From Oscillospiraceae bacterium (lineage in GTDB: Bacteria > Bacillota > Clostridia > Oscillospirales > Oscillospiraceae), in contig JAFSLL010000074.1 in the NCBI GenBank assembly GCA_017448455.1, positions 1 to 38,251 of the forward strand: DNA of 38,251 nucleotides, written 5' to 3'. The notes below the pieces were generated by a model. That model was not told where the DNA came from, did no database searches, and saw only the letters and a program-made list of their open reading frames with translations. Position 1 is the stretch's first letter. Each line of letters opens with the position of its first letter. Shown here piece by piece: positions 5,257-25,714 of this stretch. A program made the position numbers and the translations under genes.

Positions 5257-5272
5257 TTGGCAGTTTTGCCAA
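5257..5272. promoter_or_regulatory. Perfect palindrome upstream of rnf (candidate operator)
   Basis: TTGGCA-N4-TGCCAA is a perfect 6+4+6 dyad just upstream of the proposed rnf -35 box. It is followed at 5271-5288 by AAGTTTA-N4-TTAACAA, one exact half of the Firmicute Rex consensus (TTGTTAA-N4-TTAACAA) with a degenerate second half. These are candidate redox or regulator sites. The protein that binds is not known from the sequence. Confidence 0.45.
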
Positions 5273-5451
5273 GTTTAGTTCTTAACAATCGCAGGATATT
5301 CCTTGTTTTTGTGCATTTTTGGCATAAGTGTCTGAATTTTCGGCGATGGATGCCCATAAGAAAATGTGGCTGATTTGTTCTGTTCCCGGTCAGGCCCAAA
5401 GAAAGCATGGAACGGAAGCTTCCCTTCGTTTCCCACGTCGGGCACCCCGTT

Positions 5452-6168
5452 TCATATTCTCTTGTAGATCTGCCTGTATTCCGGCGTCTCAGAGCCCGTC
5501 TCCGTTGTCAGAATCAGCGGAGGCATCAGCTCCAATCCCGGTTTTCCGTCTCTGCGTGCTTCCGTCAGGACCAGCGAAGCGCGCGCATTCAGGCGATGAT
5601 GCACAAAACGAAGGCGCTTCGGCTCCAGTTTCGCGTCTGACAGCACCCGCAGCAGCTCGGCCATCCGATCCGGACGACTGCAGAGAAAGAACCTGCCTCC
5701 GCTGCGGCACAGGCGGGAAGCGGTGCGGCAAACCTCCTCCAGACTGCATGTTCGCTCTTCACGTGCGGCGGCACGGTCCTGATCAGTGGCAGAAACACCG
5801 GAGCCTTTTTCAAAATAAGGCGGGTTGCAGATCACGAAATCGCAGCTTCCCGCACGAATCGGGAGATCCCTGCCGCAGAAATCAACGCAGAGTGCCGCGG
5901 CGCGATCTTTTAGTCCATTCAGACGGAAATTCTCCTCTGCCAGTTCAACCGCCTGCCGGTTCAGTTCCATTCCCGCCATCCGTAAAGAAGGATTCTGCCA
6001 GAGCAGAATCAACATCAGTACGCCGGAAGCGCACCCGAGATCCGATCCGAATCCCGTTGCGTACGGCTGCGCGAAATCCGCCAGCAGGACGCTGTCTCCC
6101 GTCAGTCTGGCGTGTTCCGTCTGCAGGAACAGCGGTCCGTTTTCCCATAGCTGCATTGATTCCGTCAT
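5452..6168 (-). CDS. tRNA1(Val) adenine-37-N6-type methyltransferase
   Basis: This is a SAM-dependent N6-adenine methyltransferase of the TrmN6/YfiC family, which modifies A37 of tRNA-Val in characterised members. A Rossmann fold shows the SAM motif DLGCASGVLMLIL (usually DLGTGSGxIpLLL), an acidic residue after strand two (GMELN) and the catalytic NPPY motif in DFVICNPPYF, which is diagnostic for N6-adenine methylation. The ATG at 6168 has an AGGAGA site at proper spacing; longer in-frame extensions run back into the upstream terminator and are rejected. Length is about 238 aa, normal for the family. The exact substrate is inferred. Confidence 0.85.
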   Translation of the reverse strand: MTESMQLWENGPLFLQTEHARLTGDSVLLADFAQPYATGFGSDLGCASGVLMLILLWQNPSLRMAGMELNRQAVELAEENFRLNGLKDRAAALCVDFCGRDLPIRAGSCDFVICNPPYFEKGSGVSATDQDRAAAREERTCSLEEVCRTASRLCRSGGRFFLCSRPDRMAELLRVLSDAKLEPKRLRFVHHRLNARASLVLTEARRDGKPGLELMPPLILTTETGSETPEYRQIYKRI

Positions 6169-6201
6169 GTTTTCTCTCTCCTGAACCATAAAAATAGAAA
6201 A

Positions 6202-6229
6202 ACCACCCACCCGTTTCGGGGTGGATGGT
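6202..6229 (-). terminator. Rho-independent terminator after the ferredoxin gene
   Basis: A minus-strand stem of about ten pairs (CCATCCACCC against GGGTGGGTGG, one mismatch) is followed directly by TTTTTC. It separates the ferredoxin transcript from the methyltransferase gene downstream. Confidence 0.85.
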
Positions 6230-6245
6230 ACTTCACAAAGCTGAA

Positions 6246-6416
6246 TTATTCGGCTACGATCGCTTCTGCCGGGCACTGAGCAGCGCAGGCGCCACACTCC
6301 AGGCACTTCTCCGGGTCGATCTCATAATGCAGCTCGCCCATGTCGATCGCTTCTGCCGGGCACTGAGCTGCGCAGGAACCGCAGGACAGGCACTCATCGG
6401 TAATAACAAACGCCAT
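6246..6416 (-). CDS. Clostridial-type 2[4Fe-4S] ferredoxin
   Basis: This is a 56-residue soluble electron carrier with two CxxCxxCxxxCP motifs (CLSCGSCAAQCP and CLECGACAAQCP), the classic low-potential ferredoxin of clostridia and the likely electron donor or acceptor for the Rnf complex. The start at 6416 (MAFVITDEC) has a GGAGG site eight bases upstream; an in-frame ATG further upstream overlaps that site. The two halves are very alike at DNA level: a 25-base stretch is identical at 6257-6281 and 6344-6368, and both copies encode CAAQCPAEAI. It has its own promoter and terminator. Confidence 0.95.
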   Translation of the reverse strand: MAFVITDECLSCGSCAAQCPAEAIDMGELHYEIDPEKCLECGACAAQCPAEAIVAE

Positions 6417-6449
6417 TTTAAAATCCTCCATCATCAGAATTCAGATTGA

Positions 6450-6475
6450 CGGGCAGCCAGGCTCATGTCTGCCCG
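6450..6475 (-). other. Hairpin in the ferredoxin 5' leader
   Basis: CGGGCAG and CTGCCCG pair around a 12-base loop in the transcribed leader, with no T-run after it. It may stabilise the ferredoxin mRNA; no function is shown. Confidence 0.4.
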
Positions 6476-6496
6476 CCGCATTTCTCTGTTGACTGT

Positions 6497-6524
6497 ATTG
6501 TAGCACACATGCCGGAAAATGCAA
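6497..6524 (-). promoter_or_regulatory. Ferredoxin gene promoter
   Basis: TTGCAT (6524-6519), a 16-base spacer and TACAAT (6502-6497) on the minus strand lie about 80 bases upstream of the ferredoxin start. Confidence 0.6.
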
Positions 6525-6692
6525 TAGCTATTTTCTTAAACTCCGTATTTTTTTTTCAAAAAAGCCGGTAGTTTGATTAATCTAACGCCTTTTTCGTCAC
6601 TTTTTTCTCGTTTTAATTCCTACTGTTCCGATAGAAGATTCTTTGATTTATGCAGCATATGTTATTCCTTATCAATTTTTTCTGAAATTAGC

Positions 6693-6721
6693 TTGACATT
6701 CTACTGAAGGAAGCATAGAAT
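6693..6721 (+). promoter_or_regulatory. rny promoter
   Basis: TTGACA, a 17-base spacer and TAGAAT form a near-consensus sigma-A promoter. The leader to the rny start is about 150 bases and contains a small hairpin (GGTTCG-N8-CGAACC, 6782-6801). Nothing else is recognisable between 6530 and 6690 apart from AT-rich DNA. Confidence 0.75.
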
Positions 6722-6880
6722 TAATTGGATTGTATTTAGAGGCCATGGGGAGGCCATATAAATCACTCTTCAATCATCCGCGGTTCGAATTCAAACGAAC
6801 CCGTTTCAGTGATCACATAACCGCATATGCTTGTGAACCCACGCAAAATTCTTAAAAGAATGGAGGTGTGTTTACGACCA

Positions 6881-8422
6881 ATGCCAACTTTTTTATGGAT
6901 TATTATTCTTCTTGTTTTGGCTGCAGCCGGATTCGCCGGCGGCACCGTATATCGGAAAAAAGTCGCCGAGCGTGAAATATCCAGCGCCGAAGATGAGGCC
7001 AAGCGGATTATCAATGATGCAATTAAAAGTGCCGAGAGCAAAAAGAGAGAAGCTCTTGTAGAGGCAAAGGAAGAAATACACAAAAGTCGCTCAGAGTTTG
7101 AGCGCGAGGAAAAAATGCGCCGTTCCGAAGTTCAGAAACAGGAACGCCGCCTACAGCAGAAAGAAGAAACTCTGGATCGGAAGACTGACGCCCTGGAAAA
7201 AAAGACCGAGACTCTTAATTCCAAAATTGCGGCTGTCGAAGCGCAGCAGGCTGAAGTCGCTCTGATCAAAAAGAGCCAGCTGGAAATGCTGGAGAAGATT
7301 TCCGGCTTCACAGTGGAAGAAGCCAAAGCTTACCTGATTGCCAACATCAAGGATGATGTAACGCATGAAATGGCCATGAAGGTCAAAGAGGTGGAGGCCC
7401 AGTACCGGGAAGAGGCCGATGCCAAAGCCCGTGAGATCATCACAACAGCCATTCAGCGCTGTGCCGCCGACCACACCAGTGAGGTCACTGTATCCGTCGT
7501 CCCCCTCCCCAACGACGAGATGAAGGGCCGGATCATCGGCCGTGAAGGCCGGAACATCCGGAGCATTGAAACCCTCACCGGCTGTGATCTGATTATTGAT
7601 GACACACCGGAAGCCATTACGGTTTCCAGCTTTGACCCGGTTCGCCGCGAGGTCGCCCGGCTGGCACTGGAAAAGCTCATTCAGGACGGACGGATTCACC
7701 CGGCCAGAATCGAAGAGATGGTTGCCAAAGCCCAGAAGGAAGTCAACGCGACCATCAAGGCCGAAGGTGAACGTGCCATTTTTGAAACCAACATCCACGG
7801 GATTCATCCGGAGTTGGTCCGGCTGCTCGGTCGGATGCGTTACCGCACCAGCTATGGCCAGAATGTTCTGAACCACTCCATCGAAGTGTCTCATATTGCA
7901 GGATTGCTGGCATCGGAACTCGGTGTGGATGTCATGACCGCCAAGCGCGCCGGACTCCTCCACGACATCGGCAAGGCCATCGACCACGAAGTGGAAGGCA
8001 GCCATGTTTCCATCGGTGTCGATCTCGCCCGCAAGTATCACGAGTCTGACGCTGTCATCCATGCCATTGAGGCACACCACAACGATGTGGAGCCGCACAC
8101 CGCTGTCGCCTGTCTGGTTCAGGCCGCAGATGCGATTTCCGCCTCCCGTCCCGGTGCCCGTCGTGAGAACATTGAAAACTATGTCAAACGACTGGAGAAG
8201 CTGGAAGAAGTCTCCAAAAGCTTCCCGGGTATCGCAAGCTCCTACGCGATTCAGGCCGGCCGGGAAATCCGCATCATGGTCAAGCCGGAAGCGGTTTCTG
8301 AAGATCAGATGGTTCTGCTCGCGCGTGACATCGCCAAGAAAATCGAGGATGAGCTTACCTATCCCGGACAGATCAAAGTCCACGTCCTGCGTGAAACCAA
8401 AGTGGTTGATTACGCGAAATAA
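6881..8422 (+). CDS. rny: Ribonuclease Y
   Basis: RNase Y is a membrane-anchored endoribonuclease that starts mRNA decay in Firmicutes. The 513-aa product has an N-terminal membrane helix ([15 protein letters not shown]), a long charged coiled coil (about residues 30-190), a KH RNA-binding domain with [13 protein letters not shown], and an HD domain with the metal-binding HDIGKA motif. The ATG at 6881 is chosen because the membrane helix should begin almost at the N-terminus and a GGAGGTG site lies 12 bases upstream. It is a single-gene unit with its own promoter and a bidirectional terminator. Confidence 0.97.
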
Positions 8423-11779: not shown

Positions 11780-13393
11780 TTATGCCGTATAGACGCATTT
11801 CCCGTCAAGATAAGAGGCTTGAACGCCGATGGTATGCAGATCGTGAGGGGCTGTTTCGAAGGGATTGCTGCTGAGCAGGACAAAGTCGGCGTAATACCCC
11901 GGTGCTATGCGGCCTTTCACGTTCTCTTCAAAACTTGCTTCCGCGCCGCGGATGGTGAAGCTGTCCAGCGCCTCACCGACCGTAAATGCCTCCTCAGGAA
12001 GATACGGACCGGTACCGTCAATGGAGGTGCGCGTTACGGCGCATTCCATGCCGCGCATCACATCCGGAAGCTCAACCGGGCAGTCGGAGCCGTTGGATAC
12101 CGAGACGCCACTGTCCATGAGCGTTTTCCAGCAATAGCTGGTTGCGGCGAGCTCCGGTCCGACACGGTCCAGAACGATATGGTTATCATAGTCCAGGAAA
12201 ATGGACTGCGCATAGACACGCATATTGAGAGCCCGGATACGTTCGAGCTGTTCCGCACGGGAGATCTGGCAGTGAACGACACCGTGGCGGTGGTCGATAC
12301 GGGAATACGCGCGAAGCGCCTGTTCCACTGCATTGAGAACCTGATCCAGACAGGCATCGCCGATGGCGTGGATGGCAACCTGCATTCCATGCCTGTTGGC
12401 ATAGGAAACCATCTCATTCATATGTTCTGCGCTGAACAGGGAGAATCCGCAGGTCTCCGGCATATCCGCATAGGGTCGTGAAAGATGCGCCGTATGACTG
12501 CCGAGGGCACCGTCGCCCAGCATTTTGAGCGGACCGATTCGAAACCGCTGGCTGCCCGCGCCGGTCACGTTGCCCGCTTCAACAAAGCGGCGCAGTTCCG
12601 GCAGCGTCGTAAAATTCGCCTGCTCATAGACGCGTACTGTCAGTTCTCCGCTCTCCTCCAGTTCCAGGTACGCGGCATTGACTGTCTCAAAGGGGATCGC
12701 ACGGAAGACGCAGTAATCGTCGGTCTGGGAACTTGTTACGCCGTAGGAGTTGAGCGCGGCACAGGCAAGACGGATCATGTCCTTCAGCTCTTCTTTGTCG
12801 GGAAGCGGAATAAAGGGCGTTAGCAGATCCATCGCATTGTCATAGAGTCTGCCGTCCGGCTCGCCGTTTTCCTGGCCGACCGTACCGCCCGCTGGGGAAG
12901 GCGTGGCAGCCGTAATGCCGGCAATCTCCAGCACACGGGAGTTGACAACACAGCAGTGTCCGCATGCGCGGGTCAGCATAATGGGGTACTCCGTGGAAAT
13001 TGCGTCCAGGTCCGCCCGGCTCGGCATACGCGAGGCGTCCGAGAAATAATCCTGGTTCCAGCCGCGCCCCAGCAGCCAGCGGCCCTCACGCGGCGGATGC
13101 GCCTGCGCGTATTCCCGTACGTAGGCAAGCAGATCCGTCAGACTTCCCGTATGCGGCGCGAGCTGAGCCGCGTTCAGCGACTGGCCGAGATTCAGCAGAT
13201 GCATATGCGAATCGTTGAAGCCCGGGCATACAAAGCTGCCCATCAAGTCAACAAAAGCGGTGTCCACGTCCGCAAGAGAGCGGATTTCGCTGTCCGAACC
13301 GACCGCAGCAAATCTGCCGTCCTCTACGAGGAAGGCCTCCTGGAGAGCTTCTTCCCCGGTGTATACCTTCCCGTTGTAATAAACTGTTTTCAC
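11780..13393 (-). CDS. YtcJ-like metal-dependent amidohydrolase
   Basis: This is a 537-aa member of the amidohydrolase superfamily (YtcJ/NfdA group), which are metal-dependent hydrolases of amide or formamide substrates. Visible metal-site motifs are CPGFNDSHMHLL (HxH), AIHAIGDACLD (His) and SNGSDCPVE (Asp). The C-terminal VKGRIAPGYYADFVLL strand motif is typical. No signal peptide is seen, so it is cytoplasmic. Its start overlaps the stop of the upstream symporter by four bases, which puts it under the same lysine riboswitch. The natural substrate is unknown; an N-acylated amino acid or lysine derivative is only a guess from context. Confidence 0.88.
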   Translation of the reverse strand: MKTVYYNGKVYTGEEALQEAFLVEDGRFAAVGSDSEIRSLADVDTAFVDLMGSFVCPGFNDSHMHLLNLGQSLNAAQLAPHTGSLTDLLAYVREYAQAHPPREGRWLLGRGWNQDYFSDASRMPSRADLDAISTEYPIMLTRACGHCCVVNSRVLEIAGITAATPSPAGGTVGQENGEPDGRLYDNAMDLLTPFIPLPDKEELKDMIRLACAALNSYGVTSSQTDDYCVFRAIPFETVNAAYLELEESGELTVRVYEQANFTTLPELRRFVEAGNVTGAGSQRFRIGPLKMLGDGALGSHTAHLSRPYADMPETCGFSLFSAEHMNEMVSYANRHGMQVAIHAIGDACLDQVLNAVEQALRAYSRIDHRHGVVHCQISRAEQLERIRALNMRVYAQSIFLDYDNHIVLDRVGPELAATSYCWKTLMDSGVSVSNGSDCPVELPDVMRGMECAVTRTSIDGTGPYLPEEAFTVGEALDSFTIRGAEASFEENVKGRIAPGYYADFVLLSSNPFETAPHDLHTIGVQASYLDGKCVYTA

Positions 13394-14868
13394 GCCTGTA
13401 TATCCTCATAGAAGAGCGCGGCATTCTCATCCACTGTACCAATGTTCATATAGCGGGCCTTGTAATCCCGCAGCAGGCGGAAGTAGTCCCCGGAAAGGAT
13501 GAGAATAACCGCAACGTTGATAAAGGTTGGGATCGCGGAAGTAATATCGACCACGGTCCAGATAAAGCCCTGATTATTGGTCTTGACCAGATAGATGGTC
13601 CAGAGCAGACCGGGAAGCGCACGGGTGGCATAGAAGACCTTCATCAAGATCTTCTTCCAGGCAGCGTCTTCATGTCCGAGATGCTCAAGAATGGCGAGGT
13701 AGTAAGTAAACCAGCCGCCGGAAGTCGTGACCGTGAAGATGATCATGACAATGGCGAGCAGATACTTTCCGATCGTACCAAAGCCCTGTCCAAAGGCCGT
13801 CAGCGCGAGTGTGCCGCCGTTTGTGCCGTCTGTCCAGGCTCCGCTGAGGATGACCGCCAGCGCGGTGATGGTGCAGATGATAAAGGTGTCGAAGAAAACC
13901 TCAAATGAGCCCCACAGCCCCTGCTCGATCGGGTGAATGGTCTTCGCGGAGGAATGGATCATGGGAGAAGTACCCCAGCCGGCTTCGTTGGAATACACTG
14001 CACGGGCCATACCGACACGAACCATCTGGCTGACCGCGCAGCCGGCAAAGCCGCCGACCGCAGCGGTTCCGGTGAACGCGTTGACGAAGATGGAACCGAT
14101 CGCGGCGGGGACACGGGTGATATTCACAAGGATCATGACGATACCCATCAGAATGTAGACCACGCTCATAACGGGAACCAGCTTGGAGAAGATATTGGCG
14201 ACACCGCGCGTACCGCCGCTGGTGATGAGATAGGTCAGAATGGCAAGAAAGACGCCGACAATGATGATGCCTTCAACCGTGAGAGAGCCGAGGTGGATAT
14301 CGCCGAGGTTCAGAGCGCCGGAAACCACCTGAGCCGCAGTCAGTGTCGAGGAGGTTACGAAGAAAGTGGAGAAAATACCGAGGGCAAAGATGACGCCGGG
14401 AATCAACCAGAGCTTGCCCCAGTGGTGCTTTTCACCGAGTCCCTGTTCCATGTAGTAGGTCGGGCCGCCGTATGTATCCCCGTTGTCTTTCCGCTGGCGG
14501 TAGAAGAGACCAAGTGTCACTTCCACCTGCTTCAGGATCATCCCGAGAGCAGCCGTCATCCACATCCAGAAGACTGCCCCGGGACCGCCTGCCGCAACCG
14601 CAGTCGCGACACCGGCGATATTGCCGAAGCCAACCGTTCCGCCGACAGCGGTAACAATCGCCTGGAAGGGACTGAGCATGCCCTCCCGGTCTTCTGTTGT
14701 CTGATTCCTGCGGAAAAGTGTTCCGACGGTATGCCGCCAGATGCGGCCAAAGTAGCGGAACTGGAAAAAGCCTGACCGCACCGTAAAATACAGGCCGGTC
14801 ACCACCATCAGGACGATCAGGGGAAGCCCCCAGAGAACGCCGTCGAGCCAGTTGAGAAATTCGATCAT
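13390..14868 (-). CDS. AGCS-family amino acid:sodium symporter
   Basis: This is a 492-aa integral membrane transporter of the alanine/glycine:cation symporter family (AlsT/DagA type). Typical sequences are GFGNIAGVATAVAAGGPGAVFWMWM, SNEAGWGTSPMIHSSAKT and GGWFTYYLAILEHLG, with about ten to twelve membrane segments. An AAGGAG site precedes the ATG at 14868. The gene lies directly downstream of a lysine riboswitch with an intrinsic terminator, so its expression should fall when lysine is abundant. That suggests lysine or a related amino acid as substrate rather than Ala or Gly; this is an inference from regulation only. Confidence 0.93.
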   Translation of the reverse strand: MIEFLNWLDGVLWGLPLIVLMVVTGLYFTVRSGFFQFRYFGRIWRHTVGTLFRRNQTTEDREGMLSPFQAIVTAVGGTVGFGNIAGVATAVAAGGPGAVFWMWMTAALGMILKQVEVTLGLFYRQRKDNGDTYGGPTYYMEQGLGEKHHWGKLWLIPGVIFALGIFSTFFVTSSTLTAAQVVSGALNLGDIHLGSLTVEGIIIVGVFLAILTYLITSGGTRGVANIFSKLVPVMSVVYILMGIVMILVNITRVPAAIGSIFVNAFTGTAAVGGFAGCAVSQMVRVGMARAVYSNEAGWGTSPMIHSSAKTIHPIEQGLWGSFEVFFDTFIICTITALAVILSGAWTDGTNGGTLALTAFGQGFGTIGKYLLAIVMIIFTVTTSGGWFTYYLAILEHLGHEDAAWKKILMKVFYATRALPGLLWTIYLVKTNNQGFIWTVVDITSAIPTFINVAVILILSGDYFRLLRDYKARYMNIGTVDENAALFYEDIQA

Positions 14869-14959: not shown

Positions 14960-14982
14960 CCTCACATGCCAAAATCGATGAG

Positions 14983-15155
14983 TCAATAGCTCCTCTACAT
15001 ATTCATGTAGGAGTATGCAGCCTGTTCGACTGCATCCCAACTCCGGACGCCCTGTACGCGGCTCCGTGTTTCGGCGGGACTTCCTTTCCCGGGAACATGG
15101 TAACGACCGCACTGTCTCTGTTCCGGGTACTCTTAAGGCCCGCGCCTCTATTGCC
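14983..15155 (-). promoter_or_regulatory. Lysine riboswitch (L box) aptamer
   Basis: The minus strand shows the L-box core. P1 pairs CAATAG (15153-15148) with CTATTG (14989-14984). Then come AGAGGCGCG and TTAAGAGTA, the P2a arm CCCGGAACA against TGTTCCCGG, GGGAAAGG and the conserved GCCGAA. The P3 arm has CGGA/TCCG, P4 has ATGCAG/CTGCAT and P5 has CTACAT/ATGTAG, and the aptamer closes with GGAGCTATTG. This follows the order of the Bacillus subtilis lysC leader. It is followed by an intrinsic terminator and an AGCS symporter gene, so lysine binding should stop transcription. Confidence 0.9.
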
Positions 15156-15173
15156 GATGATTCAATTTTCTGC

Positions 15174-25283: not shown

Positions 25284-25434
25284 TCTTATCGTATTTTTAT
25301 TGATCTTTCACAAAATTTCGAGGTTGCTTTACAGAATACGGGCAAATTAAGCTCCTTGTCTTCTCGACAGGGCTGACTATTATATCTTTTACGTATGTTT
25401 AATAACTTATTATATGTATTTCCTTTTTGTAAAA

Positions 25435-25483
25435 CTCTGTGTTATCATACAATCGTCCTGAGGGAACAGGATAAAACACAGAG
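25435..25483 (+). promoter_or_regulatory. Palindrome and candidate promoter of the micro-ORF unit
   Basis: CTCTGTGTT (25435-25443) and AACACAGAG (25475-25483) form an exact nine-base inverted repeat. A smaller hairpin, TCCTG-N6-CAGGA, lies inside it at 25456-25471. TACAAT at 25448-25453, with TTTGTA 16 bases upstream, may be the promoter, so the repeat would flank the start site as an operator; if transcription starts further upstream it would be an RNA stem. Confidence 0.45.
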
Positions 25484-25499
25484 AAAGAAGGCGAAGGAC

Positions 25500-25556
25500 A
25501 TGCTGAAGATGCTCAAGGAATACTACGAAAGCTTCTCCCACCGTGAGGGCAAATAA
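25500..25556 (+). CDS. Micro-ORF 1, 18-residue peptide (new family?)
   Basis: ATG to TAA encodes MLKMLKEYYESFSHREGK. An AGAAGG site lies eight bases before the ATG. The peptide has an amphipathic, mixed-charge start and a basic/acidic end, with no signal peptide or membrane segment. A near copy follows at 25608 with the same site and spacing. Over the 13 codons they share, four differ only at silent positions and one changes Ser to Ala, as expected for a selected peptide. I do not recognise a family. It could be a signalling or regulatory peptide, or a leader peptide. Confidence 0.6.
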   Translation: MLKMLKEYYESFSHREGK

Positions 25557-25607
25557 GCGGGACTGGTTTGGGTACCGCAATCAACTGACAGAAAGAAGGC
25601 GTTGAAA

Positions 25608-25655
25608 ATGCTGAAGGAGTATTACGAAAGCTTCGCTCACCGCGAGGGTAAATGA
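25608..25655 (+). CDS. Micro-ORF 2, 15-residue near copy of micro-ORF 1
   Basis: ATG to TGA encodes MLKEYYESFAHREGK, the same peptide as micro-ORF 1 without its first three residues and with Ala for Ser. The upstream GAAAGAAGGCG is identical to that before micro-ORF 1, and the AGAAGG-N8-ATG spacing is the same. The 51 bases between the two ORFs do not look repeated except for this leader. A strong terminator starts 15 bases after the stop, so both peptides appear to be the end of one short transcript. Confidence 0.6.
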   Translation: MLKEYYESFAHREGK

Positions 25656-25670
25656 CCGATCGAAACGATT

Positions 25671-25714
25671 AGCACGGACTGCATTTGTGATGGATGCGGT
25701 CCGTGCTGTTTTTT
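25671..25714 (+). terminator. Strong terminator after the micro-ORF pair
   Basis: AGCACGGAC pairs with GTCCGTGCT (25699-25707), with an inner GCAT/ATGC pairing, and is followed by GTTTTTT. It closes the micro-ORF transcript 88 bases before the lipoprotein gene. Confidence 0.92.

Follow-up and report, generated by a model that had tools for sequence, protein, structure and literature searches.

Features of the micro-ORF unit

The window, that is, the whole stretch of 38,251 nucleotides analysed from contig JAFSLL010000074.1 of an Oscillospiraceae bacterium (assembly GCA_017448455.1, 92% complete with 7% contamination), carries on its forward strand a 338-bp unit that consists, in order, of a predicted LysR-type operator, a promoter, two ribosome-binding sites, two micro-ORFs and a terminator. 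Micro-ORF 1 (MLKMLKEYYESFSHREGK; 25500–25556) and micro-ORF 2 (MLKEYYESFAHREGK; 25608–25655) are 51 bases apart, and in both cases 8 bases lie between the end of the ribosome-binding site AGAAAGAAGG (25482–25491 and 25590–25599, respectively) and the ATG. These elements are present as an earlier note on this DNA had described them. The first ribosome-binding site is retained in most units of clade A, the group of relatives that includes the window, and both ORFs are backed by the silent-change test of the family given below. The two ORFs are homologous in register over 17 codons (LKMLKEYYESFxHREGK), of which 7 differ silently and one exchanges Ser for Ala; the earlier note had counted four silent changes over a shorter stretch, and its statement that Ser/Ala is the sole residue change between the copies holds over all 17 codons. 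The strong terminator that was said to end the pair was found as an intrinsic terminator at 25670–25714, and homology to other clade A units stops near or before it. Note that the genomes compared in this study are, where named, metagenome-assembled.

Upstream of the ORFs, the putative operator dyad TATTATATCTTTTACGTATGTTT (25378–25400) contains T-N11-A and corresponds to the family consensus TATCATATC-N5-GATATGRTA, from which it deviates at 4 of the 16 specified bases. It is followed by the promoter core GTATTT-N17-GTGTTATCAT (25416–25448), which was recognized in the unit alignment and would comprise an activation half-site or -35 region and an extended -10. The centre of the dyad lies approximately 65 bases before the probable transcript start, as placed from the -10, and the transcript would begin with the 5' hairpin GUCCUG-AGGGAA-CAGGAU (25455–25472), which folds in clade A and is weak in most clade B units. 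The nine-base palindrome that had been noticed here (25435–25443 and 25475–25483) is indeed in the sequence. However, its left arm overlaps the predicted extended -10 (25438–25448) and would therefore not be transcribed, and the alignment shows that the palindrome is absent from clade B, so that we did not take it as an RNA hairpin; the conserved element at this site is, as judged from the alignment, the promoter itself.

The operator and promoter were then compared among the 35 counted units. The dyad fitted best exactly 15 nt before GTATTT in 31 of the 35, with four or fewer mismatches of 16 at that place in 27, and the mean number of mismatches there was 4.0, compared with 7.1–14.1 at 27 other offsets. 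Three units (L137, L138 and L144) had 13–14 mismatches at this spacing; in them the dyad appears to sit one base closer. It fitted poorly in L074. T-N11-A was found at the same place in 31/35 units, GTATTT was exact in 34/35, and GTG 17 nt later, followed by TA, was present in every unit. The first transcribed bases, GTCCYGAGGGA, were also similar in clade A and in others. The LTTR box, as outlined in passages of PMC8407307, combines a T-N11-A site around -65 with an activation site over -35, and the units have the same architecture, with a T-N11-A dyad near -65 and a probable -35 site, to which a LysR-type protein is predicted to bind.

Distribution of the peptide family

The earlier note had proposed a search for relatives with a count of copies per locus. 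With the micro-ORF 1 peptide as query, 16 of the 102 genomes of the genus matched at E up to 1, for the most part in pairs approximately 80–126 bases apart, and among 400 genomes of the whole family the window's own genome gave the only convincing match. Searching with a profile built from 21 peptides gave matches in 42/102 genus genomes at E up to 1; loci of 27 of these were read, and 26 genomes were accepted, ten more than the peptide query had given, and one (G405, locus L148) was rejected. Against the family, the same profile matched 12 genomes at E up to 0.1, and all three that were read (the own genome, G310, G384) were accepted. Thus, relatives occur in 26 of the 102 genus genomes, 20 of them with tandem sets of 2–4 ORFs and six with one ORF per unit as read. 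Units were also found in four genomes of two other genera of the family (G039, G342, G310 and G384). A pattern scan of the genome contigs gave six loci, of which four lie in genomes already among those compared and one is a further real unit (L067). The 35 counted units exclude L067, two further G464 units found by weight matrix and the G039 and G342 units, as well as L078 (in G448), L148 and L143, a contig-edge near-copy of L144. Weak family matches at L003 and L004 were rejected because they lie antisense to or within longer genes, and L063 was rejected because it lies out of frame within a gene that we take to be transaldolase-like and thus matches by chance. The peptide pattern had no match in viral contigs.

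The general form of the peptides is MKKxxxLLxEYYxxF with a variable tail, and most relatives are 15–21 residues long. The clade A peptide is MLKE[FY]YESFSHREGK. Clade B units encode MKKLEKLFEEFYESFSHREG and then MKK[MI]SELFKEYYRSFSHREGR, and these two positions are distinct paralogues, kept in parallel in the seven loci that have both in full. Other relatives end in YESYLHR, YATFSR, YEIYKEGRG or YVSFVHGRG. Outside the genus, G039 and G342 have MKSLAALLSDYYRTFSR-type sets, with related sets in G310, and G384, of another genus of the family, has a MKKLVRFLEEYFEICAHK-type set. In G039 (L198) and G342 (L199), both of genus g39, the first ORF reads MEQNxLxHVVGAxxGNCQTS and is followed by YYRTFSR peptides. 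Several single loci depart from the common layout. The second ORF of G484 (L073) has ATA in place of the ATG of the others, and in L075 (G478, contig C25) a deletion that reaches into the spacer has removed the HREGK end of the first ORF, the second being intact. Locus L135 (G464, contig C19) holds three units within 3 kb (5260–8196), all of which have a promoter of their own and two peptide matches.

In line with the remark that no such family is known, Pfam gave no match for one composite peptide and NCBIfam none for four peptides. Rfam had no match at gathering score in nine loci and, with E relaxed to 0.5, none that covers the unit in L132 or L198, and a tandem repeat finder returned nothing. 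Among the open-licence titles and opening lines of abstracts listed, none describes the micropeptide family or the LysR regulon set out below.

Codon changes in the micro-ORFs

We next asked how codons differ within the family. Differing codons were counted across all pairs of distinct rows, and the alignment columns were shuffled as a control. The synonymous share of differing codon pairs was 0.78 in clade A (761/980; 18 distinct rows), 0.58 in the first ORF of clade B (102/175; 7 distinct rows) and 0.48 in the clade B 21-mers (174/366; 9 distinct rows, comprising second ORFs and three single ORFs). The mean share after column permutation was 0.20–0.24, and none of 2000 permutations reached the observed value in any of the three ORF sets; this permutation controls for composition and column conservation, not for relatedness. 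The first ORFs of L079 and L075, which fall outside the patterns used, were left out of the test. Variable sites were at third positions in 14/22, 13/22 and 17/33 cases in the three sets, and the spacers between the ORFs were more diverged than the ORFs. The codon data give good support to the view, put forward in the earlier note for the window pair, that selection acts on the peptides. Judged by the presence of relatives in 26/102 genus genomes and by an excess of silent changes that no permutation reached, the ORF pair is not a product of chance.

Gene neighbourhood and position of the units

Nitrogen-assimilation genes or a LysR gene were found in the fetched stretches, which are of unequal length, of 19/35 units, and in those of 16/35 when LysR was not counted. 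The neighbour set consists of type III glutamine synthetase (GSIII), NadE, AmtB-PII, AsnB, GltB, PyrG, GuaA, PurA and LysR. Pfam confirmed GSIII, AmtB fused to P-II and LysR; the names of the other neighbours are presumed from sequence likeness and from tblastn between loci. In most clade B loci, GSIII and AmtB-PII are divergent neighbours of the unit. Genes of this set were present in the stretches of 1 of the 10 units of clade A, window included, and of 18 of the 25 other units.

Homology between the clade A units compared begins 3–33 bases before GTATTT, continues to approximately 215–310 bases after it and then stops. It thus extends from the operator or promoter to near the terminator, and the flanks differ. 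In one genome (G412), two copies located at unrelated sites share 97% identity over 336 bases. Neither the amylase nor the lipoprotein gene that adjoins the window unit was matched beside other units, with the lone exception of one 27% match over 119 aa, and no unit was found in the 600 bases upstream of the two nearest lipoprotein orthologues. On these comparisons, the window unit is a relocated copy that would have moved out of a nitrogen cluster with its operator kept, and it is unrelated to the downstream lipoprotein gene. The suggestion that the peptides might be leaders of that gene is not supported, given the terminator in between, the two nearest orthologues without a unit upstream and the differing flanks. 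The window unit had no match in phage and plasmid collections.

Partial copies were noted at two loci. In L071 (G412, contig C76), a second 49-base terminator region, 92% identical, lies approximately 1350–1400 bases after GTATTT. In L078 (G448, contig C179), a lone promoterless copy of the second ORF with its ribosome site (6579–6638) is read in frame as the last part of a 78-aa open frame, which we take to resemble the start of an AbiEii-type gene; this copy is perhaps a scar of unit movement.

Operator sites before other genes

In the window's own genome, the promoter core occurred at three or fewer mismatches in two places, the window unit and a site before asnB on contig C191. Because the reversed control pattern also gave one chance match in this genome, the asnB site rests on its place and on its matrix score. 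It lies between the divergent gltB and asnB genes, with a T-box leader in between (70.5 bits against an Rfam curated threshold of 93; E 2.5e-13), and a LysR gene (C191, 10453–11406) follows directly after asnB. The tetranucleotide correlation between the window and C191 was 0.95; loci of related genomes also gave 0.93–0.95.

A weight matrix trained on the 35 units was run over 28 loci with a threshold of 16. Sites before asnB scored 40.2 in the own genome, 31.5 in G412, 47–57 in three g102 loci, 18.4 in G109 and 17.2 in G410; G109 also had sites before amtB (24.6) and pyrG (20.7). Besides the units, scores above 16 in the 28 loci were confined to sites before asnB, amtB and pyrG and to g39 operators beside LysR, and the maximum on reversed sequences was -15.6. 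Two G264 sites that were found by pattern scored below 16. Unlike the LTTR box in general, the dyad-plus-promoter pattern is restricted, occurring in 14 of 390 family genomes (five genera, 18 places). Of 389 genomes of the order, two had the pattern; these belong to the own family, and the 347 genomes from outside it gave no match. The pattern is strict, missing the window's own site at 3 mismatches, and the control pattern of the family scan was absent among the matches listed. The 18 places comprised five units, two asnB sites, two pyrG sites, five T-box-like leaders in g102, three places without a recognized ORF and one probable chance match. In all three g102 leaders that were fetched, asnB was confirmed downstream.

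The putative cognate regulator has the Pfam domains HTH_1 and LysR_substrate. An orthologue was present in 25/26 unit genomes compared with 23/76 others (Fisher p 1.3e-9, ignoring phylogeny; one 39% match, in G301, was dropped). The unit genome without a LysR match was G436, and in the unit genomes G464, G478 and G489 the match contained one in-frame stop. The orthologue lay inside the fetched stretch of 14/35 units. It was divergent from the operator at five g39 and three g102 loci fetched and was the divergent neighbour of units L134, L136, L139 and L140; it was on the same strand in L146 and absent from the short stretch of L145. A divergent or adjacent LysR gene was thus found outside the window and clade A, where, as fetched, LysR is not adjacent to the unit. 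The matrix and pattern sites, together with this association, give good support to membership of the unit in a predicted regulon with asnB, amtB and pyrG.

Two kinds of sites deserve separate mention. A LysR-box promoter together with a T-box leader precedes asnB in L204 (7771–8010, minus strand) and L149 (8537–8776, plus strand), and to judge from these sequences, two control elements seem to act on asnB in these bacteria. At L201 (G128), L202 (G237) and L200 (G310, contig C6), LysR-box promoters with 0–1 mismatch are divergent from LysR, and no recognized micro-ORF lies downstream of them; they possibly drive other short products or RNAs.

Properties of the peptides

The hydrophobic moment of 7 of the 12 peptides tested was higher than that of at least 99% of shuffled sequences. 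Clade D peptides (L134, L136, L139 and L140) had moments of 0.67–0.70, which at most 36 of 5000 shuffles reached, and the peptides are amphipathic in clades B and D. The clade A 15-mers are weakly amphipathic (1492 and 1653 of 5000 shuffles reached the value). No secretion signal was seen by inspection in these charged peptides of 15–24 residues. In 27 comparisons, no convincing sequence mimicry of cluster proteins by a peptide was found; the best candidate, GltB, was reached by 11/200 shuffles.

Possible function of the micropeptides

We propose that the unit is a LysR-controlled transcript of the nitrogen regulon and that its micropeptides act in trans inside the cell to tune nitrogen assimilation, a reading to which we give a probability of a little under 0.6. 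Specifically, the LysR protein would bind the dyad near -65, as gene neighbourhood, co-occurrence and box type suggest, and would jointly control the units and asnB, in some species along with amtB and pyrG. A short mRNA extending from promoter to terminator would encode two paralogous micropeptides, which would act within the cell on a protein of ammonium or glutamine assimilation. In clades B and D, where they are amphipathic, the peptides may have a protein (or membrane) as their binding partner in nitrogen assimilation, and the first candidate targets are GSIII and the AmtB-PII fusion, because the clade B units usually have these two as neighbours. We infer from the genomic data that the peptides modulate nitrogen assimilation. 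Among the three options of the earlier note (a peptide signal, a small regulator or leader peptides of the lipoprotein gene), the small regulator is best supported, since the unit has a LysR-type promoter in common with asnB, amtB and pyrG and is often located in nitrogen clusters; the lipoprotein leader did not survive. A more specific version, which we regard as speculative, is that the tandem, differentiated micropeptides of 15–21 residues form a multi-subunit modulator of GSIII or AmtB-PII and that relocation and multiplication of the unit set its dosage. Several observations count against the proposed mechanism: clade A units are mostly outside the nitrogen cluster, and some operators (in G128, G237, one of G310 and g102) have no recognized micro-ORF. 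Also to be weighed are the damaged or deviating ORFs of L075 and L073, the LysR genes with an in-frame stop and the genome without one, the dyads that fit poorly, the low matrix scores of the G264 sites, the weak amphipathicity of the clade A 15-mers and the lack of convincing mimicry of cluster proteins. Given that 76 of the 102 genus genomes have no accepted unit, the peptides would be dispensable for nitrogen assimilation.

A serious alternative, to which we give a low probability, is that the peptides act on the LysR protein as feedback co-regulators and not on an assimilation enzyme. The LysR gene is the most constant partner of the unit (25/26 unit genomes), and it is the divergent neighbour in the four clade D loci and at the fetched g39 operators. 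However, 23 genus genomes have LysR without an accepted unit. Improbable as well is the view that the unit functions as a regulatory small RNA within the nitrogen regulon, its ORFs being secondary or part of a dual-function transcript. Such an RNA would account for the predicted short transcript, bounded by a regulated promoter and a terminator, for the similar first transcribed bases in clade A and others and for the operators that drive leaders without a recognized ORF. It is opposed by the excess of silent changes in all three ORF sets, whose variable sites fall mostly at third positions, by spacers that diverge more than the ORFs, and by the weakness of the 5' hairpin in most clade B units.

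We consider it still less probable that the micro-ORFs are leader peptides in cis, whose translation would attenuate the gene that follows, namely asnB in clade B and, in the window, the lipoprotein gene. Several clade B loci do have the unit immediately ahead of asnB and a T-box-like leader, and in the own genome a like promoter stands before the T-box and asnB without a unit. In clade A, however, the units end in terminators of their own, are followed by unrelated genes and share homology only from operator to terminator, and asnB of the own genome already has a T-box. In addition, 37 clade A and B peptides, 637 residues in all, contain no Asn and only 3 Gln, unlike an amino-acid-sensing leader, and the genes downstream differ between units. 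Very improbable is that these are type I toxins, bacteriocin-like or membrane-active peptides of a spreading selfish unit, as the promoter-to-terminator units at unrelated sites, with up to three per genome, and the amphipathic, charged peptides of clades B and D might suggest, since the operator is common to asnB, amtB and pyrG, the window unit has no phage or plasmid match and no viral contig has the peptide pattern.

The preferred reading, intracellular micropeptides of a nitrogen regulon, has parallels among very small proteins elsewhere, which are likewise encoded in or regulated with nitrogen-assimilation genes; here such regulation is predicted. In Methanosarcina mazei, the 23-aa sP26 was earlier reported to interact with glutamine synthetase, and stable binding was not seen in vitro, according to the portion of PMC11957540 available to us. 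For the 61-aa sP36 of the same archaeon, extracts of PMC10714827 describe interaction with AmtB1 and GlnK1 on ammonium upshift. The likeness is that of very small intracellular proteins tied, here by prediction, to nitrogen assimilation. As far as those descriptions go, the present peptides are set apart by being bacterial and mostly in tandem, with 15–21 aa and a LysR-type operator, whereas sP26 and sP36 are archaeal. The cyanobacterial IF7 and IF17 (gifA and gifB) are two homologous, nitrogen-regulated small proteins, one with a glutamine riboswitch leader, and on the account excerpted from PMC6316151 they are of 7 and 17 kDa and encoded by separate genes under NtcA control. Unlike them, the peptides here are far shorter, their unit gave no Rfam match in the loci scanned, and the neighbouring glutamine synthetase is of type III. 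With regard to the regulator, GltC of Bacillus subtilis, a LysR-type regulator of the nitrogen-assimilation operon gltAB in the passages seen of PMC6794564, is of the same broad kind; the targets predicted here (asnB, amtB, pyrG and the micro-ORF units) differ. By analogy, the best explanation is that the micropeptides work like sP26 and sP36 or like the inactivating factors of glutamine synthetase, and we do not file them as a member of either group, given the negative Pfam, NCBIfam and Rfam results for what was scanned, their mostly shorter length and their mostly tandem arrangement.

Ammonium assimilation is important to bacteria of the rumen and gut, and there peptides tied by their operator to GSIII and AmtB-PII would be direct candidate regulators. 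To our knowledge, little is known of the regulators that act on GSIII and on AmtB-PII fusions in gut Bacillota. The comparison also supplies a predicted LysR regulon of asnB, amtB, pyrG and the micro-ORF units, and operator and synonymous-change evidence of this kind can find peptides below the usual annotation length.

Other features of the window

In the window, Rfam detected a lysine riboswitch only (RF00168, 79.5 bits; 14979–15158, minus strand), and neither glnA RNA nor Downstream-peptide RNA, the glutamine riboswitch families, was among its matches. The first gene that follows it on that strand is an ORF of 492 aa (13390–14868), presumably a sodium/alanine-type symporter. The only other close direct repeat of similar size found in the window, with a lag of 87, lies at 6246–6434 on the minus strand, within a small ferredoxin-like ORF with two cysteine motifs.
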